Assembly (NCBI RefSeq): GCF_025245835.1
Contig: NZ_JAOBWS010000006.1
Span: 62,001 to 126,000 of the forward strand
Reading direction: 5' to 3'
Source: Rheinheimera sp. 4Y26
Lineage (GTDB): Bacteria; Pseudomonadota; Gammaproteobacteria; Enterobacterales; Alteromonadaceae
Length of the DNA stretch: 64,000 nucleotides
Below the pieces are notes generated by a model. The model made no database searches and had not been told where the DNA came from. It worked only from the letters and a program-made list of their open reading frames with translations. Positions 5,275-62,694 of the stretch are shown one piece after another; the stretch's first letter is position 1, and each line of letters begins with the position of its first letter. The translations under genes were made by a program, and so were the position numbers.

Positions 5275-7515
5275 ATGACCAATCCGAGCCTCTTTACCAT
5301 GGCGCCCGCCATGTTCTTTTTGTTCTCAGCAACCGCGGCTGAAAATACTGCCGTGCCTTCAGATACCACAGTAAAAACTGATGAGCTGGAAGTGATCACC
5401 GTTTATGCCCAGCGCCGTGCTCAGGACAAAACTGAAGTCAGTGTGGCTGTCACCAGTCTGGATGGTGACGCCCTGGCGCAGCGCCGTATTCAGAGCAGCA
5501 CAGCCTTATCTGGCCTGGCGCCTAATTTAGTGGCGTCTAATGTCGCTGGCGAAGGCACCACCCCTTCTTTTAATATCCGCGGTGTAGGGATGTTTGACTA
5601 CAACACTTCCACTGTGTCGCCTATTTCTATTTATAGCGATGATGTGGTCAGTGGCGGCGCCAACTTTTTAAGCAGCAGCCTGTTTGATTTGCAGCAGGTA
5701 GACGTGCTGCGCGGGCCACAAGGCACTTTATTTGGCCGCAACACCACAGGCGGCGCTATTTTGCTGATGTCACGCCAGCCGGAAGCTGAGTTTGGTGGTT
5801 ATGTCAGTGTGGATGTCGCTGAACATGATAGCCGGCAGCTGACTGCAGCGGTGAATGCACCTTTGGGTGAACAAACGTCGGCCCGTCTTGCTGTGAATCA
5901 TCAGGATTATCAATACAGTATGCAGAACCTGTTTCCATTGGGGCAGGACGGTGGCATGCGCCATAACAATGCCCGGTTGATTATCCAGAGTGATTTTGAA
6001 CACTTTAGCCTGAACCTGAAACTGCACAGTGAAAATATTCAGGGTGCTCCCAAACCTATTTACAGTGCTGGTATTTTAAAAAATGACGGCAGTGGCAGCC
6101 TTTGTGCTTTGGCCGATGTTGGCAGCAGACGTTGTGTTGATGCTTTTGGCTACGCAGTGCCCAGCGACGATTATTGGCAGACAGTTGCGGATACCTTCGA
6201 TAAAAAACACGATACCGAAAGTTATGGTGCCAGCCTGAAGTTAACGGCTGAACTTGCGCCAGGTTATCAGCTGAAATCTGTGACTGCACATAAAAATCTG
6301 CAGCGTTTCCATTCTTTTGACTCGGACGGCCCGGGCAATTTTATTGAAGGCAGCTTTGACTCCGACAATGAGTTTTTTTCGCAGGAGCTCAGTCTGGCGG
6401 TGGAGGGGGATGGCAGCTTCTGGACTTCAGGGCTGTTTTATCTGGATGAGTCTTTAATACAGAACAACGATTTGGATTTGTTCCGCGATTTTCGTGCTAT
6501 TGAAGCCCTTGCCGGGGTACCGGCGCAGTTTTTTTACCATAACAAACTCGATAACAGCTCCTGGTCGGCGTACAGCCAGTGGGAGCAAAGTTTAAACAAC
6601 AGCTTCAGTGTGCTGCTGGGCGGGCGTTACACCCGCGAAGAAAACCAGTATCAGGCAAGATCTGATTTAGCTTTGGTGCCGGTGTTTATTCCGGCGTTTT
6701 GGGATTTAACCGGCGAAGTGAAAGACAACGAGTGGTCGGGTAAAGTAGCGCTGCTGCAAAAACTTAGCGACAGCCACAGCCTGTATTACAGCCTGTCGCG
6801 TGGTTTTAAAGCCGGCGGTTATAACGCCGGTTATGCCACCAGCGCGGCACAGGCGGCAGACTCAGCTTATGCGCCGGAAAGGCTCAACGCCTGGGAAATT
6901 GGCGGTCACTGGCAGTCGGCTCAGGCTGGCCTTAGTTTTGACTGGGCTGCCTTTTATTATGACTATCAGGACCAGCAGGTTTTTGTCAATCAAACCTCAG
7001 GGCCTGCGCCTTATCATGTGCTGAAGAATGCCGGCGATTCACAGATTTACGGCCTGGAAGCTGAGCTAAACTGGCGTATTGACCCGGCCATGCAGCTGGA
7101 ACTGACCTTAGGCCATCTGCCCAAAGCTAAACTGGGCAAATATCAGACCGAAGCTGTGCTGGTGCCGGAAAACCGTCTGCCTTTTACCTCGGAATGGATG
7201 GCCAGTGGTCAATTCAGTTATGACTTCTCTGGTATGTTGCACGACCTGCAGTTCCAGCTTGGATTTGTTTATTTGTCTGACTTTTATTTTGACCAGTATG
7301 AAAATCCCTATACCCAACAACAGGGTTACACTTTGTGGCACAGCAGATTGTCTTATCAGCCGATGCCGGAACTTGAGTTGTCACTCTTTGGCAAAAACCT
7401 GTTGAACAAAGAGTATACCGAGCTTAGATTTGATTCTATTGCTGCTTTGGCAGCAGTCACCGAATTGCGCGGTGAAGCCCGGCAACTGGGGCTGGGAGTC
7501 ACTTATCAGTTTTAA
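5275..7515 (+). CDS. TonB-dependent outer-membrane receptor
   Basis: An outer-membrane beta-barrel receptor taking up a ligand with TonB/ExbBD energy. After a short signal peptide (FLFSATAA) comes a TonB-box-like segment (DELEVITVYA). The plug domain carries the family signatures FNIRGVG and VDVLRGPQGTLFGRN; the barrel ends in the usual aromatic residue (VTYQF). About 746 aa, normal for the family. I chose ATG 5275, which has a weak GGA 6 nt upstream and yields a clean signal peptide; a GTG at 5239 would add 12 residues. The following genes encode a membrane protein and a secreted peptidase, so a peptide or peptide-like ligand is possible, but the sequence does not identify the substrate. Confidence 0.9.
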   Translation: MTNPSLFTMAPAMFFLFSATAAENTAVPSDTTVKTDELEVITVYAQRRAQDKTEVSVAVTSLDGDALAQRRIQSSTALSGLAPNLVASNVAGEGTTPSFNIRGVGMFDYNTSTVSPISIYSDDVVSGGANFLSSSLFDLQQVDVLRGPQGTLFGRNTTGGAILLMSRQPEAEFGGYVSVDVAEHDSRQLTAAVNAPLGEQTSARLAVNHQDYQYSMQNLFPLGQDGGMRHNNARLIIQSDFEHFSLNLKLHSENIQGAPKPIYSAGILKNDGSGSLCALADVGSRRCVDAFGYAVPSDDYWQTVADTFDKKHDTESYGASLKLTAELAPGYQLKSVTAHKNLQRFHSFDSDGPGNFIEGSFDSDNEFFSQELSLAVEGDGSFWTSGLFYLDESLIQNNDLDLFRDFRAIEALAGVPAQFFYHNKLDNSSWSAYSQWEQSLNNSFSVLLGGRYTREENQYQARSDLALVPVFIPAFWDLTGEVKDNEWSGKVALLQKLSDSHSLYYSLSRGFKAGGYNAGYATSAAQAADSAYAPERLNAWEIGGHWQSAQAGLSFDWAAFYYDYQDQQVFVNQTSGPAPYHVLKNAGDSQIYGLEAELNWRIDPAMQLELTLGHLPKAKLGKYQTEAVLVPENRLPFTSEWMASGQFSYDFSGMLHDLQFQLGFVYLSDFYFDQYENPYTQQQGYTLWHSRLSYQPMPELELSLFGKNLLNKEYTELRFDSIAALAAVTELRGEARQLGLGVTYQF

Positions 7516-7564: not shown

Positions 7565-8704
7565 ATGCGCTTTCAACTGCTTTGGCCGGTGCTGGCAACC
7601 TTAGTGTTGCCACTGCTGGTGTCCTGGTTTGTCTATCCCACTCATTTGCCGCCTGGTTTTGGTGAGTTTCCGCCGCAGTTTGTGGCACAAGCGCCGGGTT
7701 TTAACCTTTGGTACTTTATTGCCGTGGCAGTTGGTGCTGTCTGGATCAGCTGCATGATGTTTTTGCCAAAGCTGATGGGATTTAAAGGCGCCGCACCAAA
7801 GCCAGCTGCGGCGAAAAAACCTTTGCCCTGGTGGTTTTACCTCGGCACTGTGGTCACGCTGTTTTTCTGGGCGCTGATGTGGAGCCATTCCACCGCCTTT
7901 GGTGACCTGGTGTACTGGGCTTTTACCCCGTTGTGGTGGGGTTTTATTCTGCTGCTCGATGGTGTGGTGTATCACCGTAATAATGGTGCGTCCCTGTGTT
8001 CACGTCAGCCTGGGTTGGTGCTGCTGGCGGCCTTAGTATCCATCGTCGGCTGGGCTTATTTTGAATATTACGATTATTTTGTCCTCGCCAACTGGTATTA
8101 CCCGGATTCGTCAGCTGCACCCTGGTCTCATCCTGTGCTGGTGCTGGAGTTTTTGCTGACCTACAGCACGGTAACGCCTGTGATCCTGGAGTGGTATTGC
8201 CTGTTCAACACTTTCCCTAAACTGGTGGCCCGTTATAAAAATGGTCCGGCGCTGAATTTAAACGGCAACTGGCTGATTGGCATTGGTGCTTTGCTGATTG
8301 GCCTGATGGTGCTGCTGCCTTATCCGCTGTTCTGGGTAGTGTGGATTGGGCCTTTTGCCGTGATGACCGGCATCTTATTAAAACTTGGCATCTGGAATCC
8401 TTTTACCGACATCAAACAAGGTGACTGGAGCGCGGGTTTATTAATCGGCATGGCGTCTTTAATCAATGGTCTGTTCTGGGAGTTCTGGAACCACGGCAGC
8501 AACTATTTTGTACAACAGCCGGTCACCAATCCGAATTTCTGGGTGTACAACATTCCTTATGTCGATGTGATTCATTTGTTTTCTGAAATGCCCTTGCTTG
8601 GTTATTTTGGTTACATCCCCTTTGGGGTGCTGGTGTGGCAGGTATTTATCTGGTCCGGCAAATTGTTTGGTTTTAATACCGACTTAAAAATATTCCCATC
8701 CTGA
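7565..8704 (+). CDS. Polytopic inner-membrane protein of unknown function
   Basis: 379 aa with roughly nine to ten hydrophobic segments and many Trp and Tyr residues. It starts at ATG 7565 after an AAGGAATG ribosome-binding region. A Lys/Ala/Pro-rich cytoplasmic-type stretch (about 78-90, PAAAKK) follows the second membrane segment. No catalytic motif or transporter signature that I recognise is present. It lies 49 bp downstream of the TonB receptor gene on the same strand with no terminator between, so the two are probably co-transcribed, and a role in handling the receptor's ligand is conceivable. A strong nested inverted repeat follows its stop codon. Confidence 0.75.
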
Positions 8705-48494: not shown

Positions 48495-49477
48495 TGAACG
48501 AAACCACACCAGTGATAATCCGCCGTTCCGGGCGGCGCGGTCAGGAGGAGAAAAACAGCGGCGCCTGGAAAGTGGCTTTTGCTGACTTTACGCTGGCAAT
48601 GATGGCTTTTTTTATGGTGTTGTGGATTTTAGAAGTATCAACGGTGAAAGAACGGGTCAAAGTGGCGACTTTTATGCGGACTCAGTCCATTCTGGGCGGC
48701 CATACCGACCCATTTGATACTGTGAATAGTCCTTATCCGGTCGACCTTGGCGGCTCACCTTCCCCGGTGGAAAAAGAAGTGTCAGACAACGAGCTGCCGC
48801 AAAATTATATTGCTGGTATGTCGGCCCATCTGGAAGTGCCTGAGGGCAAAAGAGAACCTTCCGCTGGTATGGGCGATAAACTCAGCTCATTGATTAGCGG
48901 CCAATATGACACGCCTGCAGATCTCAGCACTCTTGCCCAGGCCTTTCGGGAATTTGCCGAAACCAATAAAGCCGACGCTAACCTGATGGTGGAACAAATA
49001 CCAGCAGGTCTTAGGGTAATTATCCGCGACAGTGAAAACCGCCAGATGTTTATACGTGGTCAGGTGCAGATGACCCCTTATTTTGAAGATTTACTGCTGA
49101 AGTTAGGCCCGGTGTTCGGCAAAATTCAAAACAAACTGTTGTTATCAGGTCATACCGATGCCACCAGCTTTAACAGCAGCCAGTACAGTAACTGGGAGCT
49201 GTCCGGCGATCGTGCCTTGCAGGCCCGGCAAGTGTTGGCGGCCGGCGGTATGCCACCGGAACGAATAGCCCAGGTTAGTGCCTTTGCGGAAACTATGTTG
49301 CTGAATAAAGCGGCGCCCGGCGCCAGCGAAAATCGTCGTATTGAATTGTTGATCCTGACCAAAAAAGCTGAACAACAGCTGCTCGACATGTTCTCCACCG
49401 AAAAAGAAAACAACGCACTGGATGAGGCGGCAGAAGCTGCCCGCAAAAATGAGCCTGTGCTCAGAACTAAATCTTAG
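48494..49477 (+). CDS. lafU: Lateral flagellar stator protein MotB type
   Basis: 327 aa. A short cytoplasmic segment, one transmembrane helix carrying the ion-carrying Asp (AFADFTLAMMAFFMVLWIL), then a periplasmic plug and an OmpA-like peptidoglycan-binding domain (LLSGHTDATSF, NWELSGDRALQARQVL, NRRIELLILT). Anchors the stator to the cell wall. In Vibrio, LafTU are proton driven; the coupling ion here cannot be proved from sequence. Confidence 0.95.
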   Translation: MNETTPVIIRRSGRRGQEEKNSGAWKVAFADFTLAMMAFFMVLWILEVSTVKERVKVATFMRTQSILGGHTDPFDTVNSPYPVDLGGSPSPVEKEVSDNELPQNYIAGMSAHLEVPEGKREPSAGMGDKLSSLISGQYDTPADLSTLAQAFREFAETNKADANLMVEQIPAGLRVIIRDSENRQMFIRGQVQMTPYFEDLLLKLGPVFGKIQNKLLLSGHTDATSFNSSQYSNWELSGDRALQARQVLAAGGMPPERIAQVSAFAETMLLNKAAPGASENRRIELLILTKKAEQQLLDMFSTEKENNALDEAAEAARKNEPVLRTKS

Positions 49478-49484
49478 GAATGTT

Positions 49485-49901
49485 ATGCCGTATTTACGCC
49501 AGCAAGGTGGCCGTCAGTTTTATCGTTGGTATTTTTATGACCCGGCACAGTCACTGGAACTCCAGACTAAAGGTATTTCCGTGCGTTTGCTCAGGTCTTC
49601 CTGGTTTGGCGGTGACATAGGTTTGGCCGTGGTGAAAGACATGAGTATCGGCGGCTGCGGTTTGCTGGTGCCAACCCTTGATCAGGTGCCCGACAAGTTC
49701 TGGGTGATGTATGACAATGATATTAAAGTAAAAGCTTTGGTTCGATATCGCAAAAAGGTCAATGACAAGCTAGAGTTTCTTGGATTGCAGTGGCTTGGTA
49801 AAGATTACGCAGTAAGGCTCAAGTTGCTGCGCAGACTGCGCCGTATGGCCTTTATGCAAAAACACGATCACTTCCGTTTGGTTGCCAGTGCGTCCCGATA
49901 A
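49485..49901 (+). CDS. PilZ-domain c-di-GMP receptor inside the lateral flagellar cluster
   Basis: 138 aa from ATG 49485 (AGGA 5 nt upstream), 7 nt after lafU and 18 nt before fliM. It shows both c-di-GMP binding motifs of PilZ: RxxxR as R10-QFY-R14 and DxSxxG as D52-MSIG-G57, followed by a beta-barrel-like remainder (LGLQWLGKDYAVRLKLLRRL). No YcgR-type N-terminal domain. Position between the stator and C-ring genes suggests it acts on the motor, like a minimal YcgR-type brake, but this is inference. I do not recall this gene from the described Vibrio lateral clusters. Confidence 0.8.
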   Translation: MPYLRQQGGRQFYRWYFYDPAQSLELQTKGISVRLLRSSWFGGDIGLAVVKDMSIGGCGLLVPTLDQVPDKFWVMYDNDIKVKALVRYRKKVNDKLEFLGLQWLGKDYAVRLKLLRRLRRMAFMQKHDHFRLVASASR

Positions 49902-52952: not shown

Positions 52953-54107
52953 ATGGCAGAAAATACCGGTCAGACTAAGTCGGAACAACCCACCGAACAA
53001 CGCAAGCGAAAATCCAGAAGGGAAGGCCAGGTTGCGCGTTCGAAAGAGCTGAACACGGCGCTGGTGGTGCTGATGGGCAGTGCCGCTATGTTGTGGTTTG
53101 CCGACTTGTTTATGGAGCTGTTTCTGAAACTGGCCGAGAGCAGCTGGCAGCTGGACAAAGACTCACTGAAACAAGATGACTTAATGACCGGCGCTTTTAG
53201 CGAAGCCATATTACAAATGCTTAGCGCAGGTTTGCCGTTTTTCAGCACCTTGTTTATTGGCAGCTGGATTGGCGGTATTTTCCCGGGCGGGATGAATTTT
53301 TCCCGGAAACTGTTGGGACCGAAGTTCAGTAATTTAAATCCAATTGCCGGTTTTGGCCGCATGTTTGGCTCTGAAAGCCTGGTGGAGCTGGCCAAGTCGA
53401 TTATCAAAGTGGTGCTGCTCGGTGGTTGTTTGTGGGGTCTGTTGAGTCACCTGGCTGAGCGTTTGATGTTTTTGCAACGGATGGATTTTACCATCGCCGT
53501 CACACAAGGGCTGGAGCTGGTGTCTTTTAGTCTGATGGTGATGGCAGTGGCGTTAATTCTGGTTGCTGTGATTGATGTGCCTTATCAGCAACACAAAATT
53601 AGCAGTCAGCTGAAAATGACCAAGCAGGAAGTGAAAGACGAACGTAAATCCACCGAAGGTAATCCCGAGATTAAAGGCCGGATCCGGCAAATCCAGTATC
53701 AGATCGCCAGTCGTCGTATTGATGATAAGGTGCCGACCGCAGATGTGATTATCACCAACCCAACCCATTATGCAGTGGCAATTAAATATTCAGAGAAAAA
53801 AGCCAAGGCACCTTATGTGGTGGCAAAAGGGGTTGATCAGATAGCGCAGCGTATCCGCGAAGTGGCAAGCCAGCATCAGCTGGAGATTCTTGAACTGCCG
53901 TCTCTGGCCCGCGCCATTTATTTTTCGACCCGGGTCGATCAGGAAGTGCCCCGGGGTTTGTATACCGCAGTGGCCTATGTGCTGACCTATGTGATGCAGT
54001 TAAAAGCTTATAAACAAGGCCGTGGTTACAAGCCGGCACCACTGCCCGAACTCTCCATACCGGCCAGCCTGCTAAAACGGGCAAAAGAACGAGGAAATGA
54101 ATCTTGA
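52953..54107 (+). CDS. flhB: Flagellar export specificity switch protein FlhB (lateral)
   Basis: 384 aa. Four membrane helices, then a cytoplasmic domain with the self-cleavage site NPTH (ADVIITNPTHYAVAIKY, about 265-280). N-terminus is the usual basic TEQRKRKSRREGQVARSKEL. Controls the change from rod/hook to filament substrates together with LafE. The next gene overlaps by 4 nt. Confidence 0.97.
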   Translation: MAENTGQTKSEQPTEQRKRKSRREGQVARSKELNTALVVLMGSAAMLWFADLFMELFLKLAESSWQLDKDSLKQDDLMTGAFSEAILQMLSAGLPFFSTLFIGSWIGGIFPGGMNFSRKLLGPKFSNLNPIAGFGRMFGSESLVELAKSIIKVVLLGGCLWGLLSHLAERLMFLQRMDFTIAVTQGLELVSFSLMVMAVALILVAVIDVPYQQHKISSQLKMTKQEVKDERKSTEGNPEIKGRIRQIQYQIASRRIDDKVPTADVIITNPTHYAVAIKYSEKKAKAPYVVAKGVDQIAQRIREVASQHQLEILELPSLARAIYFSTRVDQEVPRGLYTAVAYVLTYVMQLKAYKQGRGYKPAPLPELSIPASLLKRAKERGNES

Positions 54108-56176
54108 ACTGGCGTACTTTGTCGCAACCTTACACTGCTATTCCCGTGTTGCTGTTGGCTGTGTTGGCCATGGTGGTCTTGCCGCTGCCGGGTTGGTTAC
54201 TGGATATCCTGTTCACTTTTAATATTGTGTTGTCCATTGTGGTGCTGCTGGTGGCAGTGTCCGCAAAAAAACCACTGGATTTTTCCGTCTTTCCAACAGT
54301 GCTGCTGGTGGCAACGCTGATGCGGCTGACACTGAACGTTGCATCCACCCGGGTGGTATTACTGAACGGCCATGAAGGTACAGATGTGGCTGGCCGGGTG
54401 ATCCAGGCTTTTGGTGAGGTGGTGATTGGCGGCAACTATGTTGTGGGTATGGTGGTGTTTGTCATCCTGATGGTGGTGAACTTTGTTGTTATCACCAAAG
54501 GGGGTGAACGTATTTCTGAAGTATCTGCCCGTTTTACCCTGGATGCGATGCCCGGCAAACAGATGGCCATTGATGCTGATTTAAACTCAGGGCTGATAGC
54601 GCCGGAGCAGGCGAAAGAGCGCCGCGCTGTGATTGCCAAAGAAGCAGACTTTTACGGTTCGATGGACGGTGCCTCCAAGTTTGTCCGGGGTGACGCCATT
54701 GCCGGTTTGGTGATCCTGATCATTAACCTGCTCGGTGGTGTGGCCATTGGTGTGTTTATGCACAGCCTGAGTTTGGGTGAAGCCTTCCAACGTTATGCGC
54801 TCCTGACCATAGGTGATGGTTTGGTCGCACAAATTCCGTCGCTGCTGATGTCGGTTGCCGCCGCTATTATCGTCACCCGGATGAATGATGAAGGCGAGAT
54901 GTCAGATGAGGTTGGCCGGCAGCTATTAGCCGAACCCAGGGTACTGCTGACTGCCGGTTCAGTGATGACGGTGCTGGGGCTGGTGCCTGGTATGCCAACC
55001 GCTGCCTTTTTAGGTTTTGCCGCGCCTTTATTGTTTGCCGCCTGGCGCATGCAGCAAAAACTGGTACGGGAAAACTATACCGAGGTGGAAACCCTGACGG
55101 AAAAAATCAGTCAGGCACCGGTGCCACTCGGTTGGGAGGATATTCCTTATACCGACAGGTTGTCGGTTGAACTGGGGTTCCGGCTGGTGTATCTGGCCGA
55201 TAAAAGCCAGGGCGAAGCGCTGTTACAGACTCTGCGTGGCGTGCGCAAAACCCTGTCGGAAGGGGCTGGTTTTTTATTGCCTGAAGTGCGGGTGCGTGAC
55301 AGCCTGAAACTGAATCCACAGGAGTACCAAATCAAACTGGCCGGTGTGGCTGTGGGCGGCGGGCGGTTAAAACCGCAAAAGTTGCTGGCGCTCAATACTG
55401 GTGACACTTATGGTCAGATGGATGGTGAGGTGGCCAGGGATCCGGCTTATGGTCTGGATGCAGTTTGGGTCGAACCAGAAGAAAAAGCCAAGGCGCTGAA
55501 TCTGGGTTATTCGGTGGTGGACACCGCCACTGTGATTGCCACTCATGTCGGCAAAGTGGTGAAAGAAAATCTGGCCGAGCTCTTTATGTTTGAAGACATT
55601 AAACAGCTGAATAAAAGACTGGCGCAGGTGTCACCAACGCTGGCAGAGAATCTGGATAAAGTCCTGAGCGCCAACCTGCAGTTAAAAGTGTTCAGACTGT
55701 TACTGAAAGAGCAGGTAGCATTAACCGATGTGGTGACCATCGCCACAGCGCTGGTCGACAGTGCCGAGATGACCAAAGATCCGATTTTGCTGGTGTCTGA
55801 TGTACGCTGTGCACTGCAAAGAGCACTGATGCAGCAGGTGCTTGGTTCACATGAAGAACTGGCGGCTTTTAGTCTGGATGAGAAGCTGGAGCAAACTTTA
55901 CAGAGTGCGCTGAATCAGGCCATGCAGTCGGGTAAAGTTGCGCTGGATAGCTTCCCCGTTGCCCCCAATTTACTGAGTCAGTTCCAGCAGGCCATGCCGC
56001 AGGTCAAAGAAAAAATGCAGCGGCTTGGCTATCAGCCGGTGCTGGTGGTATTGCCTCAATTACGGCCATTATTAGCCCGTTATGCCAGAACCTTTACTCA
56101 GGGCAGTCTGGTGGTGTTGTCTTATAATGAAATCCCGGAAACGGTACGGGTGAATATTTTGGGCACTTTGGGATGA
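54104..56176 (+). CDS. flhA: Flagellar export protein FlhA (lateral)
   Basis: 690 aa. Eight membrane helices and the FHIPEP-family block AKKPLDFSVFPTVLLVATLMRLTLN, followed by the large cytoplasmic domain that receives chaperone-substrate complexes. The start is TTG 54104 with GAGGAA 8 nt upstream, overlapping the flhB stop; the nearby ATG at 54097 is out of frame. Last gene of the fliM-to-flhA group; no obvious T-tailed terminator follows. Confidence 0.96.
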   Translation: MNWRTLSQPYTAIPVLLLAVLAMVVLPLPGWLLDILFTFNIVLSIVVLLVAVSAKKPLDFSVFPTVLLVATLMRLTLNVASTRVVLLNGHEGTDVAGRVIQAFGEVVIGGNYVVGMVVFVILMVVNFVVITKGGERISEVSARFTLDAMPGKQMAIDADLNSGLIAPEQAKERRAVIAKEADFYGSMDGASKFVRGDAIAGLVILIINLLGGVAIGVFMHSLSLGEAFQRYALLTIGDGLVAQIPSLLMSVAAAIIVTRMNDEGEMSDEVGRQLLAEPRVLLTAGSVMTVLGLVPGMPTAAFLGFAAPLLFAAWRMQQKLVRENYTEVETLTEKISQAPVPLGWEDIPYTDRLSVELGFRLVYLADKSQGEALLQTLRGVRKTLSEGAGFLLPEVRVRDSLKLNPQEYQIKLAGVAVGGGRLKPQKLLALNTGDTYGQMDGEVARDPAYGLDAVWVEPEEKAKALNLGYSVVDTATVIATHVGKVVKENLAELFMFEDIKQLNKRLAQVSPTLAENLDKVLSANLQLKVFRLLLKEQVALTDVVTIATALVDSAEMTKDPILLVSDVRCALQRALMQQVLGSHEELAAFSLDEKLEQTLQSALNQAMQSGKVALDSFPVAPNLLSQFQQAMPQVKEKMQRLGYQPVLVVLPQLRPLLARYARTFTQGSLVVLSYNEIPETVRVNILGTLG

Positions 56177-56506
56177 AGCGACCAAAAACACAAAAACTTT
56201 AATTTATTAACCGCATTTCGTCGCTAAAAAATGTTGTTTTGTCGCATTTTACAAAACAAATTGCTGGAGCATTTTAAAAAAATCGTGGTATATTGCCAAG
56301 GTACTTTAACGAAAGCTAATGATAAATTTAGTTAATTCGGGTACGGAGTCTGGTTGCTTTAACACCAATCTGTTGTAAACAAGCGTTTTTAACTGATTGA
56401 AATTTAGGTTAAAGAATAACCAGATTTTTTTAGTCATTTTTTTTGCGGTTAAGCGTCAGTTCAGATTCATACAATTTGAAGACGTTTTAATCAGGCTTAA
56501 AAATTA
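56177..56506. other. 330-bp AT-rich region between flhA and the riboswitch
   Basis: No gene seen. It must hold the promoter for the riboswitch-controlled motY operon. I found no sigma-54 site with exact 10-nt GG-GC spacing (56345-56357 has 9). A possible sigma-70 -10 element TACAAT lies at 56470-56475, about 30 nt before the aptamer, without a good -35 at 17 nt. The segment 56217-56260 has loose inverted repeats around GTCGC and could aid termination after flhA. Confidence 0.5.
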
Positions 56507-56592
56507 AAAGGCAAACTGTGCCGAAAGGTCAGGACGCAAAGCCTCCGGTCTAAGGGATCTGCTAGGATCCTATCGATAGCGGGGTTGCATTA
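56507..56592 (+). promoter_or_regulatory. Cyclic-di-GMP-I riboswitch (GEMM-I aptamer) in the leader of the motY-lafK operon
   Basis: The conserved core of the GEMM-I aptamer is present in order: AAGGCAAAC, a stem CTG(T)GCC closed by the GNRA tetraloop GAAA and paired to GGTCAG, the near-invariant GGACGCAAAGCCTCCGG with CTAA, a second stem (GGGATC/GATCC) and TAGCGGGGTTGC. This follows the Vibrio cholerae Vc2 aptamer layout. It lies about 195 nt upstream of motY on the sense strand. A GEMM-I aptamer binds c-di-GMP and changes downstream folding; the output direction (on or off) is not clear from the sequence. Confidence 0.92.
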
Positions 56593-56615
56593 GTAAGCAG
56601 CATCTTTGAGGTGGA

Positions 56616-56642
56616 CTGTTGGTTTTTGCATAAAATCAACAG
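56616..56642 (+). promoter_or_regulatory. Hairpin in the riboswitch expression-platform region
   Basis: Arms CTGTTGGTTTT (56616-56626) and AAAATCAACAG (56632-56642), an 11-bp stem with one G-U pair and a 5-nt loop, 24 nt after the aptamer. No T tract follows, so it is not a classical terminator. A second motif, TCCGG/CCGGA with repeated CCGGATAT, lies at about 56667-56688. These may alter translation, Rho access or folding of the leader in response to ligand. Confidence 0.45.
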
Positions 56643-56787
56643 CTTGCCTGTCAAAGTAAGTTGATATTCCGGATATAGTACCGGATATTGCTACTTGCTC
56701 CTGCGCGTTGCTTTTAATTTGTTATTGGTTTGTTGCCGGCATTTGTTGCCTGTTGCAATTGATAAAGATTTAAAGGACGGCAATATA

Positions 56788-57627
56788 GTGATTGATCTTC
56801 TGATGAGCCTCTGGCTCGCGCCAGCTTTAATCAATGCTGACCAGCAGTATCTGCCTGCTGTTGATCAATCCCACTGGCAAATCAGTGGCGACCAGTTTTT
56901 GTGCCGTATGTCGCAATCCCTGGGGGCTATGGCTACCCTGGCTTTTACCAAAGAACCAGGGCGTCCGATTGAGATGCAACTGCAGCTGGATGCCGTGCAC
57001 CTGGAATTGCAGGATGTGCAGGGGCAGGTTGTCACTGCAGGCTGGCAGCCGGTTCAGACTGCGCCAGCAGTACGTTTTTCGCCTTCTTTTACCTCAGCCA
57101 GACTGGCACGTTTTACCGAACAAGTTCCGCTTATCATGCAGCAGTTACAGCAAGGCTACTGGCTGAAACTGAGTTTGGATCTGCCTGATCAAGCCATTGA
57201 TCTGACAGTGCCCAATCTGAAATTTGAACCTGCTTTGCAGCAGTTCCAGGCTTGTATCGCCGGTTTATTGCCGCTGCGCTGGGAACAGGCGCGGGAATAT
57301 CAGGTGATTTATCCCTCAGGTGAACGCTTGGCCGATGCCGACAGCATCGCTTACCTGCGTTTGCTCGCCAGTTACATCCAGCAGGATAAAAAAGTCCGCA
57401 AAATTCTGATTGATGGTCACAGCGATGACGCACCAACCAGCCTGGCCAACAGAGTACTGTCGGAAGAGCGTGCCGATGAAGTGGCATCCCGACTGATTGA
57501 ATTTGGTGTCAATAAACAAAAAATAGAAATCCGCGCGCACGGTAACAGATATCCCCAGGCCGTTGGCCATGGTGGGCCTAAACACAACAGACGGGTGATG
57601 ATCCGCCTGATCCGTACCCCAGCTTAA
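56788..57627 (+). CDS. motY: MotY-like flagellar T-ring protein (OmpA family)
   Basis: 279 aa from GTG 56788 (AAAGGACGG upstream), with a short signal peptide (LLMSLWLAPALINA). The N-terminal MotY domain (about 18-160) is followed by an OmpA-like peptidoglycan-binding domain (LIDGHSDDAPTSLANRVLSEERADEVASRL in parts, then HNRRVMIRL). MotY forms the T-ring that anchors stators around the basal body. First gene after the c-di-GMP riboswitch; lafK follows by 13 nt. The same motY-lafK-fliEFGHI order is known from Vibrio lateral clusters. A TTG at 56695 is a less likely start. Confidence 0.85.
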   Translation: MIDLLMSLWLAPALINADQQYLPAVDQSHWQISGDQFLCRMSQSLGAMATLAFTKEPGRPIEMQLQLDAVHLELQDVQGQVVTAGWQPVQTAPAVRFSPSFTSARLARFTEQVPLIMQQLQQGYWLKLSLDLPDQAIDLTVPNLKFEPALQQFQACIAGLLPLRWEQAREYQVIYPSGERLADADSIAYLRLLASYIQQDKKVRKILIDGHSDDAPTSLANRVLSEERADEVASRLIEFGVNKQKIEIRAHGNRYPQAVGHGGPKHNRRVMIRLIRTPA

Positions 57628-57640
57628 GGACAGACAGCAC

Positions 57641-58951
57641 ATGAACATGAAACATTTATTGTGGATTGAGCCATGCAGGCCGGTTGCGGAAGTGCAGCAA
57701 TGTATCAAAGCCGAAGGTTACCAGGTGCAACATGCCGCCGATTTAACCGCTTTACTTAATTGTTGCAGCCAGCAACAACCGGAAATTGTGGCTCTGGCAA
57801 CTGAACTGCCACAAATGCAAATGCCGGACCTGGTGTTGCTGCTGAAAAAACGTTATCCCGCTTGCCAGATTATTGTGCTGGTGGATAAAACCCAACATCA
57901 GCAGGCGGCACAGAGTCTGAACAACGGTGCCATAGATTATTTATTAAAACCTTTTAATACCAAACAGTTACAGAATATTTTACGCAATGTCGCTTCGATG
58001 AGTCTGGGCTTAAAAGAACTGGTGGCGGTGTCAGCCGGCAGCCGTCAGGTGTTACAACTGGCAAACCGCGCGGCACAAACCGACGCGACAGTGCTGCTGC
58101 ATGGTGAGTCCGGCACTGGCAAAGAAAAACTGGCGCGTTATATCCACAATGTATCGCCACGCCGCGACAAACCATATGTGGCGGTGAATTGTGCCGCTAT
58201 TCCGGAAAACATGCTCGAAGCCATGTTATTTGGTTATAACAAAGGCGCTTTTACCGGCGCGGTTAACCAACAGATTGGTAAGTTTGAAAGTGCCAATGGC
58301 GGCACTCTGGTGCTGGATGAAATTTCCGAATTGCCGCTGGCACTGCAAGCCAAATTGTTACGGGTGCTGCAGGAGCGCGAGCTGGAACGGCTTGGCAGCA
58401 ATCAGAAAATTAAGCTGGACCTTCGTGTTATTACGGCCAGCAACAAAGACCTGCGTTTATTGGTGGAACAGGGTTTATTTCGTGAAGACCTGTTCTACCG
58501 CCTCGATGTTCTGCCCCTCAGCTGGCCGGCTTTGCGTGAACGCAAAGACGACATTATTCCGCTGGCTGAGTTTTTTATTCAAAAGTATGCCGATGGTAAA
58601 TACCTGCTCAGCAAGGAGGCAAAGCAATTGCTGCTGCAATACCACTGGCCAGGCAATGTGCGTGAACTGGAAAACGTGGTGCAGCGCGCACTGGTGATGG
58701 CCCGGGGTATTGAAGTTCAGGCGATGGATTTAAATCTGCCGGTGCAGCCAAAAGCTGTTGATGCTGCATTAGGAAACAACTTAAAACGCAGCAAAAAGAA
58801 TGCTGAATTTGATTACATTCTTGGGGTGTTGAGCCAATGCAAAGGCCATCGCGCCAAGGCAGCACAAGCGCTGGGCGTCAGCACCAGAGCACTGAGATAT
58901 AAACTGGCGGCTATGCGTGAGCATGGTGTTGATATTGATGCAGTGGCCTGA
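57641..58951 (+). CDS. lafK: LafK, sigma-54-dependent master regulator of lateral flagella
   Basis: 436 aa. Receiver-like domain (1-118), AAA+ domain with Walker A GESGTGKE, sigma-54 loop GAFTGA and Walker B LVLDEISEL, and a C-terminal Fis-type helix-turn-helix (RAKAAQALGVSTRALRYKL). The receiver is degenerate: the phospho-acceptor position reads VALATELP (Ala for Asp) and the acidic pair reads WIEP, so control by a histidine kinase is unlikely, as for FleQ/FlaK relatives. It activates early lateral genes; the sigma-54 promoter before lafD is a likely target. It is transcribed behind the c-di-GMP riboswitch. Confidence 0.92.
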   Translation: MNMKHLLWIEPCRPVAEVQQCIKAEGYQVQHAADLTALLNCCSQQQPEIVALATELPQMQMPDLVLLLKKRYPACQIIVLVDKTQHQQAAQSLNNGAIDYLLKPFNTKQLQNILRNVASMSLGLKELVAVSAGSRQVLQLANRAAQTDATVLLHGESGTGKEKLARYIHNVSPRRDKPYVAVNCAAIPENMLEAMLFGYNKGAFTGAVNQQIGKFESANGGTLVLDEISELPLALQAKLLRVLQERELERLGSNQKIKLDLRVITASNKDLRLLVEQGLFREDLFYRLDVLPLSWPALRERKDDIIPLAEFFIQKYADGKYLLSKEAKQLLLQYHWPGNVRELENVVQRALVMARGIEVQAMDLNLPVQPKAVDAALGNNLKRSKKNAEFDYILGVLSQCKGHRAKAAQALGVSTRALRYKLAAMREHGVDIDAVA

Positions 58952-58969: not shown

Positions 58970-59290
58970 ATGATGACTCCAATTGATACCCAACAAAGTT
59001 TACTTGCCCAGTTTGCTGATCTGAAACAGATCGCCAGCAATGAAGTCATAGCGCCTTCCGCCGTGCAGGACAGCAGTTTTTCCAGTGACTTTACCCATGT
59101 GATCCGGGGCATTAATGCCGAACAAAATGCTGCTTCTGAGTTAATGGCGGCGGTAGATGCAGGTCGCAGTGATGACTTAGTCGGCGCTATGGTGGCCAGT
59201 CAGAAAGCGTCGCTCAGTTTTGAAATGCTGCTGCAGATGCGCAACAAGGTCATGAACGGTATTGATGACATTATGCGTATGTCGTTATAA
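58970..59290 (+). CDS. fliE: Flagellar basal-body protein FliE (lateral)
   Basis: 106 aa. The family C-terminal block is present (VASQKASLSFEMLLQMRNKVMNGIDDIMRM, split here as VGAMVASQKASLSFEML and QMRNKVMNGIDDIMRM). Links the MS-ring to the rod and is an early export substrate. Start ATG ATG at 58970 after AAAAGGAAATCCG. Second structural gene after lafK; fliF follows by 11 nt. Confidence 0.94.
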   Translation: MMTPIDTQQSLLAQFADLKQIASNEVIAPSAVQDSSFSSDFTHVIRGINAEQNAASELMAAVDAGRSDDLVGAMVASQKASLSFEMLLQMRNKVMNGIDDIMRMSL

Positions 59291-59301: not shown

Positions 59302-61053
59302 ATGAAAACAGAACTTGCAAAAGCAGCGCCGCTGCCGGCAGATAACAGGTTGCGTGAGCGTGTCATTAATATGTCTAACAAAATCAATTGGTTGCCTAAT
59401 GGTGATAAAAGCCTGGCGTCCATTGCTTTGTTAGCAACACTGGTGGCCGCCACTATAGTGGTCATTTTGTGGACCTCCGCCAAAAACTATGTGCCTTTGT
59501 ATGGCAGCCAGGAGCATTACGACAAAGCCGGTATTGTTGAGATCCTTGATAAAGAGCAGTTTCCATTTCGGATAGACACCGACAGCGGCAATATTATGGT
59601 GCCGCAAGACCGGCTGGCTGATGCGCGTATTACGTTGGCCGCGCGCGGCATTAAAGCGGCGATGCCGGAAGGTTTGTCGGCAATGAACGGCAAAGTCACT
59701 ATGGGCACCAGCCAGTTTATGGAGTCGATGCAATATCAGCACGCGCTGGAAGGTGAGTTAGCCCGCACCATTATTACGATGGATGGGGTGCGTAACGCCA
59801 GAGTGCATCTTGCCATTCCAAAACGGAATTTGTTTGTCGGACGGGAAGAAGAAAAATCTGCTGCTTCAGTGATGGTGGACCTGGCCCCTGGTTATACCCT
59901 GAAACCTGAACAGGTGGAGGCTATTGTCAGCCTGGTGGCCGGCAGTATTCCCGGCCTGGATAGCCGGCAGATTTCGGTGGTGGATCAACGCGGCAAACTG
60001 GTCAGTGGTGATTTGTTTGACACCACGCCGGTGGGCAAAGAAACCGACAAAAAACTCGCTTTTATCGAAAAAGTGGAACGCAATATTGAAGAAAGAGCGT
60101 CCATTATGCTGCTGCCCATTGTCGGTGAGGGCAATTACCGTATTCAGGTGTCAGCCGATGTTGATTTTAACGTGGTGGAAGAAACCCGCGAATCGCTGGA
60201 TAAAGACACTGTACTGACCTCCGAAATGCAAAAAACCGACGCGATGCAGGACCAGCTGGCGATGGGGATACCCGGTTCTCTGGCGAATCAGCCACCTGTG
60301 CCTAACCCGCAGGACCCAAATGCCCAGCAGGCCGACGCCAATGAGCGCACCTCACAGCGTAACGAAATGAATAAAAAGTATGACACCGGCAAAGCCGTAA
60401 CTCATACCCGTTATGAAATTGGCCGCATCCGCAGTCAGAGTGTGTCTGTGTTGGTCAATGACACGGCTGTCGCTGGCGCGGAAGCAAAAAGCTGGACACC
60501 TGAGCAATTGGCGCAGCTGGGCGAAATGGTCAAAACAGCCACAGGTTTTAATGCCGAGCGCGGTGACCAGTTCCATATCAGCAGTTTTGGTTTTGTGAAA
60601 TATGACCCTGCAGCTGAGCTGGAAGCTGTGCCCTGGTGGCAACTTCCTGAAGTCAAAGAGTATTCCCGTTATGCGGTCGGAGCCTTGCTGGGGTTGGCAC
60701 TGATTATTTTTGGTGTTCGTCCTTTGGTAAATCATTTAGTCAGCCGGAAAAACCGTGAATTGGTACCGGCACAGGCTTTTGGCCCGGCCATGGCCGGCGC
60801 CTCAATGCATGACAATGTAGCAGCGGCAGAGCCTGCGGTGCTGGAAAATCAGGCGGTAGCAACATCAGGCCAGAGTGCCTCTCAGCATCAGGCTGCACAC
60901 GCCCATCCGATAGATCTGCCACAGGTGGGTTCTGAATTTGCTGAACAAATCAGCCATTTACATTTACTTGCCAATCGTGAGTCTGACCGGGTGACAGCAG
61001 TTATTAAGTATTGGATAGAACGAGGAGTGGCCATTGAATCCGTCAAGAGCTGA
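59302..61053 (+). CDS. fliF: Flagellar MS-ring protein FliF (lateral)
   Basis: 583 aa. Two membrane helices (about 37-58 and 455-475), between them the YscJ/FliF ring-building domains (QYQHALEGELARTI, VRNARVHLAIPK, FVGREEEKSAASVMVDL). The C-terminal tail that binds FliG overlaps the start of fliG by 20 nt. A downstream Met (about residue 24) could be the true start, but the given one has AAGG nearby. Confidence 0.96.
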   Translation: MKTELAKAAPLPADNRLRERVINMSNKINWLPNGDKSLASIALLATLVAATIVVILWTSAKNYVPLYGSQEHYDKAGIVEILDKEQFPFRIDTDSGNIMVPQDRLADARITLAARGIKAAMPEGLSAMNGKVTMGTSQFMESMQYQHALEGELARTIITMDGVRNARVHLAIPKRNLFVGREEEKSAASVMVDLAPGYTLKPEQVEAIVSLVAGSIPGLDSRQISVVDQRGKLVSGDLFDTTPVGKETDKKLAFIEKVERNIEERASIMLLPIVGEGNYRIQVSADVDFNVVEETRESLDKDTVLTSEMQKTDAMQDQLAMGIPGSLANQPPVPNPQDPNAQQADANERTSQRNEMNKKYDTGKAVTHTRYEIGRIRSQSVSVLVNDTAVAGAEAKSWTPEQLAQLGEMVKTATGFNAERGDQFHISSFGFVKYDPAAELEAVPWWQLPEVKEYSRYAVGALLGLALIIFGVRPLVNHLVSRKNRELVPAQAFGPAMAGASMHDNVAAAEPAVLENQAVATSGQSASQHQAAHAHPIDLPQVGSEFAEQISHLHLLANRESDRVTAVIKYWIERGVAIESVKS

Positions 61054-62053
61054 ACCAGCCAAGCAGATTTCTGACCTCGACAGGGCTGCCATCCTGCTAC
61101 TGAGCATGGGCGAAGAAAATGCTGCCGGCATTATTAAAAAACTTAGTCGTAATGAAGTGCGTGCTTTGTCTGAGCGTATGGCAAAAATTTCGCATTTTAC
61201 CCAGGATCATGTGGCGCAGATCCTGACTGATTTTTTTGACTGTTACCGTAACGAAAGTGGTGTCAGCGGTGCTTCCAGAGTGTATCTGGAACGCGCCCTG
61301 GATAAAGCTGTGGGACGTAAACTGGCGCGTGGCATGCTGGATGATATTTATGGCGGCGCTTTAGCCGACGATATCCGTCGGCTGGAATGGGTACCGGCGG
61401 ACTTGCTGGTGCGTTTTATGGAGCAGGAACATATCCAGATGCAGGCGCTGATCCTGGCCTTTTTACCAGCGGAACAAGCCAGTGCTGTGTTGAGTTTGTA
61501 CCCGGCCGAAAAACACAACGACATCCTGTACCGTATCGCCAATATGCGGGAAGTCAGCGAACATGTGATTGAAGACTTACGCTACACCCTGGAACGTTGT
61601 ATCGAATATGTGGGCGAACAGGTTGGGGCTAGAGTCAATGGTGTGCAGAAAGTTGCCGACATAATGAACCGTTACAGCGGGAACAAAACCGAAGTGATGG
61701 CGCTGTTGAAACAACATGATCAGGCCATGGCGGAGGCTATTGAAGACAAGATGTATGACTTCTTTAGTATCAGCCGGCAGAGCGAAGATGTGATCAATAC
61801 CCTGCTGACAGATATTCCGGATGAATTATGGGTGACTGCGCTTAAAGGGGCCGACCAGGCACTCACAGACAGTATTTTGTCGGTATTACCCAAACGGCTG
61901 GCAGCTGTGTACCGGCAGCAGATTGAAACCATGAAACCGCAGCCACTACGCAAAGTGGAAGCGGCCAGAGCGGAAATTATGGCCATCGTCAAACAACGTA
62001 TTGCCGGCGGCTGGACTGAATACCGGTTGTATCCTGAAGAAACGGTGGGTTAA
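61034..62053 (+). CDS. fliG: Flagellar motor switch protein FliG (lateral)
   Basis: 339 aa. Start is TTG 61034, preceded by GAGGAG, inside the end of fliF; no ATG is suitably placed. N-terminal FliF-binding domain (DRAAILLLSMGEENAA), middle domain with the EHPQ-like segment (EQEHIQMQALILAFLP) and the charged C-terminal torque domain (LPKRLAAVYRQQIE). Couples stator ion flow to rotation. Confidence 0.95.
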   Translation: MNPSRAEPAKQISDLDRAAILLLSMGEENAAGIIKKLSRNEVRALSERMAKISHFTQDHVAQILTDFFDCYRNESGVSGASRVYLERALDKAVGRKLARGMLDDIYGGALADDIRRLEWVPADLLVRFMEQEHIQMQALILAFLPAEQASAVLSLYPAEKHNDILYRIANMREVSEHVIEDLRYTLERCIEYVGEQVGARVNGVQKVADIMNRYSGNKTEVMALLKQHDQAMAEAIEDKMYDFFSISRQSEDVINTLLTDIPDELWVTALKGADQALTDSILSVLPKRLAAVYRQQIETMKPQPLRKVEAARAEIMAIVKQRIAGGWTEYRLYPEETVG

Positions 62054-62055
62054 TT

Positions 62056-62694
62056 ATGCAAAGCACAGCGCAGGATCTTGAATTCCGTTTTCCGTCGTTA
62101 CAACGTCATGACGGTGTGGTGGAGTTTAAACACCCGAACGAACATTATTATCAGCAAGGTTATATCGCAGGCATAGCGGCAGCGCAGCAACAAGCCTACG
62201 AGCGCGGCATGCAGCAGGGGCAGCAGAACGCCGAAGCCAAACTCAGTGCTGAGTTAAAGCAGGCCAAAGCTGAAGCTGCCGCCAGACAACAAGCAGCATT
62301 AGATTTATTAAACCAGCAATTTCAGCAGCAATTACGGCTCAATGATGCCCAGCTGGCGCAGGAGATTCTGTTGCTGGTGCAAAGTCTGGCATCTTTGGTG
62401 ATAGAAGCTGAACTCAAATTACAGCCAGCCTTATTACATCAGGCCATCGACACTTTGTTACCTGAGCTTGGCAAAACTGATGTTATTGACTCTATTCAGA
62501 TATCCCCAGAGGACGCGCCGTTATTTGACGGTATTAATCAAATTCAGAATATCCCTTTGTTGCAGGAACCTCAGCTGGCGTCGGGCGAAGTGTTTTTTAA
62601 CGGCCGGGCGCAGTTGCATCAGCTGGATTATCAGCAAAGGTTACAGCAGGCGCTGCAACCGGTTCGGGACAGCCTGATGCATGAAACACTCTGA
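62056..62694 (+). CDS. fliH: Flagellar export ATPase regulator FliH (lateral)
   Basis: 212 aa. Gln/Ala-rich coiled-coil centre (about 45-110; GxxxG-like repeats around YIAGIAAAQQQAYERGMQQGQ), then a C-terminal domain (LASLVIEAELKLQPALLHQAIDTLL) like those of FliH/SctL stators. Binds FliI and regulates its ATPase. Overlaps fliI by 14 nt. Confidence 0.9.
   Translation: MQSTAQDLEFRFPSLQRHDGVVEFKHPNEHYYQQGYIAGIAAAQQQAYERGMQQGQQNAEAKLSAELKQAKAEAAARQQAALDLLNQQFQQQLRLNDAQLAQEILLLVQSLASLVIEAELKLQPALLHQAIDTLLPELGKTDVIDSIQISPEDAPLFDGINQIQNIPLLQEPQLASGEVFFNGRAQLHQLDYQQRLQQALQPVRDSLMHETL

Follow-up and report, generated by a model that had tools for sequence, protein, structure and literature searches.

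A c-di-GMP-I riboswitch aptamer heads the lateral flagellar motY-lafK-fliEFGHI operon of Rheinheimera and is conserved with lafK

A c-di-GMP-I (GEMM-I) riboswitch aptamer heads the motY-lafK-fliEFGHI operon of Rheinheimera sp. 4Y26, as confirmed by covariance-model matching and by its conservation in relatives. It probably forms part of a riboswitch that, at high c-di-GMP, makes the operon's first gene less well translated and thereby lowers LafK.

Results

A single aptamer in the leader of the operon

The window, i.e. the whole stretch of 64,000 nucleotides analysed here, covers positions 62001-126000 of its contig in a 4.08-Mb genome. In a cmscan run over the whole window, a single Rfam match exceeded its gathering score. 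This match, to RF01051 (c-di-GMP-I), covers 56500-56592 of the forward strand, with 66.3 bits (gathering score 35 bits), an E value of 8.8e-11 and a match to the full model (positions 1-87). The aptamer sequence holds GACGCAAAGCC, a GAAA loop, CTAA and TAGCGGGG, and in the cmscan alignment GAAA forms the GNRA tetraloop on the first hairpin. The GEMM-I core described in the original prediction is thus borne out by both its named motifs and the covariance-model score; its end at 56592 agrees with the alignment, whereas its start, placed at 56507, moves to 56500. The features of the leader and the operon are as follows.

54104..56176, + strand: flhA, upstream of the leader (TIGR01398, just above cut-off)
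56495..56499, + strand: possible short closing helix P1, 5' strand (GCTTA), outside the Rfam model; can pair with 56594-56598
56500..56592, + strand: c-di-GMP-I (GEMM-I) riboswitch aptamer (RF01051, 66.3 bits; G, A and C at the presumed contact positions)
56501..56509, + strand: aptamer 5' strand (AAATTAAAA), one of the two sites with which the linker element can pair in alternation
56594..56598, + strand: possible closing helix P1, 3' strand (TAAGC)
56711..56720, + strand: linker element (CTTTTAATTT), pairable with the aptamer 5' strand or the ribosome-binding site
56770..56776, + strand: presumed motY Shine-Dalgarno region (TTAAAGG; AAAGGA core)
56788..57627, + strand: motY, GTG start chosen by eye (Pfam MotY_N 1.1e-17, OmpA 1.1e-14; below NCBIfam's Vibrio MotY cut-off)
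57641..58951, + strand: lafK-type sigma-54 activator gene (Pfam Sigma54_activat, Response_reg, HTH_8)
58970..59290, + strand: fliE (TIGR00205, above cut-off)
59302..61053, + strand: fliF, MS ring (TIGR00206, above cut-off)
61034..62053, + strand: fliG (Pfam FliG_N/M/C)
62056..62694, + strand: fliH (Pfam FliH)

The predicted gene-free leader of about 600 bp with a sense-strand aptamer also stands: 611 bp separate the flhA stop (56176) from the chosen motY GTG (56788), and the aptamer lies on the sense strand. Its end is 195 nt from the motY start codon, in the predicted 5' leader. Promoter-like sites in the leader did not exceed chance (2 found, 1.6 expected). Pairing of the P1 strands is possible with different letters at the same place in some relatives; taken by itself, the helix of the window was within chance (p 0.30), and an extended P1 reached p < 0.05 in just 3 of 40 leaders.

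With fliI present downstream of fliH, domain matches agree with the predicted operon content for all genes (motY, lafK, fliEFGHI), which follow one another from motY to fliI, either overlapping or 2-18 nt apart. Upstream in the window lie genes for flagellin, fliD, fliK, fliL, a flagellar sigma factor, motA, motB and a PilZ gene, as well as two FliM/FliN-type genes, fliP, fliR, flhB and flhA. The regulator between motY and fliE combines a receiver, a sigma-54 activator domain and a Fis-type helix-turn-helix, and its cluster includes flagellin, MotAB and a flagellar sigma factor. It shares 93% identity with LafK of a Rheinheimera metagenome-assembled genome and is the presumed master regulator of the lateral flagella. 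A second related regulator, FlrC-like and with 48% identity, is encoded on another contig (G000:C1:85711), consistent with a dual flagellar system.

The PilZ-domain gene lies at 49422-49901, right behind motB (Pfam E 4.5e-05, above cut-off). Its position resembles that described for filZ, which adjoins motAB in lateral clusters elsewhere (PMC10304486), and the gene would be a second c-di-GMP input within the same lateral cluster. Just past the window, on the opposite strand and adjoining the flgN and flgA genes, is a GGDEF-domain gene (L005:9447-11774, minus strand, E 3.3e-43), so that the lateral cluster may encode its own signal maker. Of the genome's two other c-di-GMP-I aptamers, one (L007 at about 8588-8673) lies before a gene for a PAS-PAS chemotaxis receptor and the other (L008 at about 6843-6937) before a small gene of the DUF3718 type.

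Ligand-contact bases

We take the ligand-contact bases, in Vc2 numbering, to be G20, A47 and C92. By motif registration, the window carries G, A and C at these positions, i.e. the c-di-GMP type, as do 44 of 48 leaders with the window included. In L202, position 92 reads A by registration owing to an insertion and C in the cmscan alignment. An A at position 20 was found in four leaders: L022 (S. fodinae), L023 (S. mangrovi), G658 and G648 (one genus). The aptamers of these A20 lateral leaders (L022:4907-4993, L023:4930-5019, L215:129-226 and L202:1564-1654) score as c-di-GMP-I in Rfam with 63.1-82.2 bits; A20 is typical of 3',3'-cGAMP-sensing GEMM-Ib RNAs.

Conservation of the aptamer with lafK

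The best 80 of 343 LafK relatives from named genomes were kept, and 22 of these were searched for RNA families. Among these best 80, the aptamer precedes motY or lafK in all 16 named loci with at least 52% identity (L009-L024; Rheinheimera, gammaproteobacteria, Bowmanella, an Alteromonadaceae strain, Shewanella fodinae, S. mangrovi and Aeromonas sp. RU39B). RF01051 was found in none of the six more distant, FlrC-like loci searched.

Within the genus, each of 22 genomes has at least one c-di-GMP-I match somewhere; seven encode a LafK with at least 80% identity, and in all seven the aptamer lies about 1.05 kb before lafK. The leader comparison across lafK homologues proposed with the original prediction also covered two draws of genomes. 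In the family draw (395 genomes), 29 genomes had a LafK match at E <= 1e-112, every one of them with the aptamer in cis. The order draw (394 genomes) gave 42 genomes with a LafK match, 27 of them with the aptamer in cis, after a second search of 19 LafK genomes that had no nearby match in the first list. As for the others, aptamer and lafK are apparently split over two contigs in G123; in G175 a decayed copy (L175:2031-2121, 28.3 bits, below 35) sits in front of lafK where the aptamer would be expected; the LafK-like match of G098 groups with the FlrC-like rows; and 12 of the 42 LafK-like matches lack the aptamer, five in family f21 (G119, G187, G269, G363, G399) and seven in family f6 (G125, G140, G191, G233, G331, G394, G411). 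Both draws together hold 68 genomes with a LafK-like match, 53 of which keep an aptamer in cis that scores above the cut-off, in a sample where the E limit favours close relatives of the window's LafK and distant lateral systems are under-sampled.

In 11 genomes of one genus (f25 g51), 115-143 nt separate the aptamer from the lafK start codon, chosen by eye, and a motY match between aptamer and lafK was not found; in L024 the aptamer lies 172 nt before the lafK start codon. Because the aptamer is kept with lafK over many genera, even without motY between them, this constancy argues that lafK is the gene under control.

In E. coli Flag-2, judged from one record out of nine that matched, RF01051 was absent from 701 bp around the gap before lafK; this gap holds a naRNA4-type match (L199:6613-6690) between the divergent fliM/N-type and sigma-54 activator genes. 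Four genomes of genus g121 (G420, G454, G479 and G504; 6.5-7.9 Mb) carry 8-9 c-di-GMP-I aptamers each, compared with 1-6 in 16 other family genomes.

The aptamer follows one branch of the LafK tree

A tree of 66 rows places G175 together with the rows that bear the aptamer on a single 45-row branch (support 95/85), and 12 aptamer-less rows are its sister (95/83). Nine FlrC-like rows, so called by neighbourhood in a tree that contains no named LafK or FlrC, fall outside the resulting LafK branch of 57 rows (100/100), and the window's regulator sits apart from these polar FlrC-like rows. Aptamer presence requires two state changes on this tree compared with a shuffle mean of 18.6, a value that none of 500 shuffles reached, with near-copies, including identical rows, contributing to the contrast. 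The tree was rooted by its midpoint and carries a long-branch warning for L024 and the f21 and f6 groups; the join of f21 and f6 as sister may be false because long branches make up this group. Aptamer and LafK lineage travel together, and the aptamer appears either to have been gained once in this lineage or to have been lost in others.

A predicted expression platform in Rheinheimera-type leaders

The linkers are about 80-300 nt long and differ widely. In Rheinheimera-type leaders, the linker contains a pyrimidine-rich element that is complementary to both the aptamer 5' strand and the ribosome site. In clade B (L010-L013), the predicted helix between the element and the aptamer strand comprises 13 Watson-Crick pairs (p 0.007-0.013 for each leader). 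Clade C (L014-L019) has a longer helix that includes mismatches (p 0.003), and its ribosome-site helix reaches p 0.013-0.023. The same pairing test gave p 0.25 for the window and 0.17 for L009.

The joint statistic first used to look for a linker element shared by both pairings gave no support, with p <= 0.05 in only 2 of 40 leaders. A joint helix-based score, devised after this failure and after the pairing test, requires overlapping footprints of the two pairings and was applied to 15 Rheinheimera-type leaders. In 13 of them it gave p 0.002-0.006; the 15 leaders are related, so that their p values are not independent. This score was not beyond chance in the window (p 0.18) or L009 (p 0.12), where the corresponding element is nevertheless the best match. 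Compensating changes in the ribosome-site helix occur in L019 and L207 (G702).

The bound state was mimicked by folding the downstream part alone, with start codons picked by eye. Under these conditions, the ribosome site was unpaired with a probability of 0.00-0.08 in 12 of 12 Rheinheimera-type leaders, compared with 0.28-0.82, again in 12 of 12, when the alternative helix was forced. For the AAAGGA core of the window, the values were 0.08 for the downstream part alone, 0.62 with the alternative helix forced and 0.16 in the free fold. Free folding of the whole leader left the site unpaired at 0.42-0.80 in clade B, 0.56 in L009, 0.01-0.27 in clade C and 0.16 in the window; the mostly buried site in the window and clade C counts against the OFF reading. 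Relative to shuffled linkers, burial had p 0.03-0.08 in 11 of 12 Rheinheimera-type leaders (L012, 0.57), and outside this type it fell below shuffles at p <= 0.05 in only 3 of 28 leaders.

A second platform model, in which the P1 3' strand competes with a hairpin containing an anti-site (P4), was applied to nine Bowmanella/Shewanella-type leaders. It was clear in two (L020 and G719), partial in G560 and not supported in L021, L022, G658, G648 and G703; the L023 row is invalid since the P4 motif was not found there. Intrinsic termination was not supported for the window, with 0 terminator-like sites in 56150-56850 against 0.6 expected.

Taken over these analyses, the predicted OFF platform is well supported in clade B and supported in clade C; in the window, where the pairing itself is within chance, it is assigned by correspondence only.

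G115 (no start chosen) and G175 (decayed) were left out of the leader statistics, as were G273, G274 and G350, which by length are the same contigs as L023, L017 and L015. The family genomes G689, G733, G702, G658, G648, G703, G719 and G560 were added for the P4/P1, joint-score and contact-base analyses; those left out of these analyses were G589, G414, G420, G454, G479 and G504, together with G574, G673, G681, G742, G455 and G422, which match contigs of L014, L018, L016, L019, L020 and L021 by length.

Discussion

Proposed mechanism and alternatives

The most likely mechanism is a translational OFF switch, a direction that we derive from folding and alternative pairing in Rheinheimera-type leaders only. 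With ligand bound, the aptamer 5' strand would be held in the aptamer; the linker element (56711-56720), thus free, is predicted to cover the ribosome-binding site of motY (56770-56776) by base pairing, which would block initiation. Without ligand, the linker element would instead pair with the aptamer 5' strand, and the ribosome site would open. LafK would then decrease at high c-di-GMP through translational coupling or an unstable mRNA, and less LafK together with less FliE and FliF would turn lateral flagella off in sessile, high-c-di-GMP cells. The original prediction that c-di-GMP sets the whole lateral cascade at the RNA level is thus supported in part, for the aptamer at the head of the operon and for lafK as the probable controlled gene. 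The lateral regulon is expected to be off at low LafK because of LafK's role as activator; in Pseudoalteromonas SM9913, a LafK homologue is described as required for most lateral cluster genes (PMC10304486).

The alternative that survives best, although we consider it unlikely, is that a genuine c-di-GMP riboswitch acts at the RNA level in another mode, such as premature termination (dependent on Rho or otherwise) or a change in mRNA stability, the predicted linker pairings then being incidental. It would accommodate the long linkers of about 80-300 nt and an aptamer that is conserved even though the platform statistics are weak beyond Rheinheimera-type leaders. The recurrence of the linker element with compensating changes in Rheinheimera-type leaders speaks against it, as does, for the intrinsic type of terminator only, the absence of such sites from the window's leader (0 against 0.6 expected).

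An ON switch, with c-di-GMP favouring motY-lafK translation, is quite improbable: the predicted folds hide the ribosome site in all 12 Rheinheimera-type leaders when the downstream part folds separately, and high c-di-GMP usually accompanies reduced motility. Known switches of this class point both ways, since Vc2 is reported as ON (PMC12564702), whereas the flagellar class-I switch of C. difficile is described as OFF (PMC11477304).

We give very little weight to a vestigial, non-functional aptamer retained through its neighbourhood alone. Decay does occur, as the G175 copy (28.3 bits) illustrates, but 53 of the 68 genomes with a LafK match keep the aptamer in cis in front of widely different linkers, and the bases at the presumed binding positions are retained. 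That the covariance-model match is a chance or false one has next to no probability and is refuted in practice by conservation, given 66.3 bits against a cut-off of 35, the absence of RF01051 from 14 control genomes and an aptamer at the equivalent site of all 16 named relatives.

Relation to known systems

The nearest precedent for the OFF reading is the C. difficile flgB switch. Class-I riboswitches in this species are described as transcriptional OFF switches, one of which controls the flgB operon including the flagellar sigma factor gene (PMC11477304). Like this switch, the Rheinheimera element is a c-di-GMP-I aptamer heading an early flagellar operon with a regulator gene (sigma D in C. 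difficile). Unlike in this Gram-positive species with its transcriptional control, the operon described here concerns lateral flagella and the sigma-54 regulator LafK, under predicted translational control. V. cholerae Vc1 and Vc2 share the aptamer class and a gammaproteobacterial host but precede gbpA and a tfoX homologue rather than flagellar genes; for Vc2, a Kd of 1 nM and ON behaviour are reported (PMC12564702).

Closer in location, a 2009 study listed 'putative GEMM' elements before flgB and fliE of S. oneidensis (PMC2659441). These resemble the present case as GEMM-type elements before flagellar genes of a relative; they are listed as putative, and the word 'lateral' is absent from the main text of that study (PMC2659441). 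A study of V. parahaemolyticus describes repression of lafK by OpaR and lists a c-di-GMP-II riboswitch at another place in the genome (PMC4406679).

A further comparison is with the FilZ-type PilZ proteins of lateral flagellar clusters, among which MotL presumably belongs. FilZ-type PilZ proteins are described as a c-di-GMP input inside the lateral flagellar cluster (PMC10304486); they are protein effectors of motility, whereas the lafK leader element is RNA.

A c-di-GMP riboswitch at lafK was not found described in the literature searched, although an earlier listing in the founding GEMM papers is possible. The novelty suspected in the original prediction therefore holds for lafK within that literature and narrows for flagellar control in general, given the C. 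difficile case and the putative S. oneidensis elements at flgB and fliE. What is known is the aptamer class and OFF control of a flagellar operon; what we did not find described is the location at lafK.

Biological meaning

To our knowledge, c-di-GMP control of lateral flagella (swarming) has mostly been described via enzymes and protein effectors. A tentative and rather doubtful extension of our data is that one lateral lineage kept an RNA-level c-di-GMP gate, with the same OFF logic arising from different platform sequences and a change of ligand in a side branch (A20). If the proposed OFF switch is true, a single RNA element that is kept with lafK in several families would give c-di-GMP direct control of the master regulator. 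The signal would then act ahead of the assembly of any lateral basal body and would provide a simple link from a "settle down" signal to the shut-off of lateral flagella.
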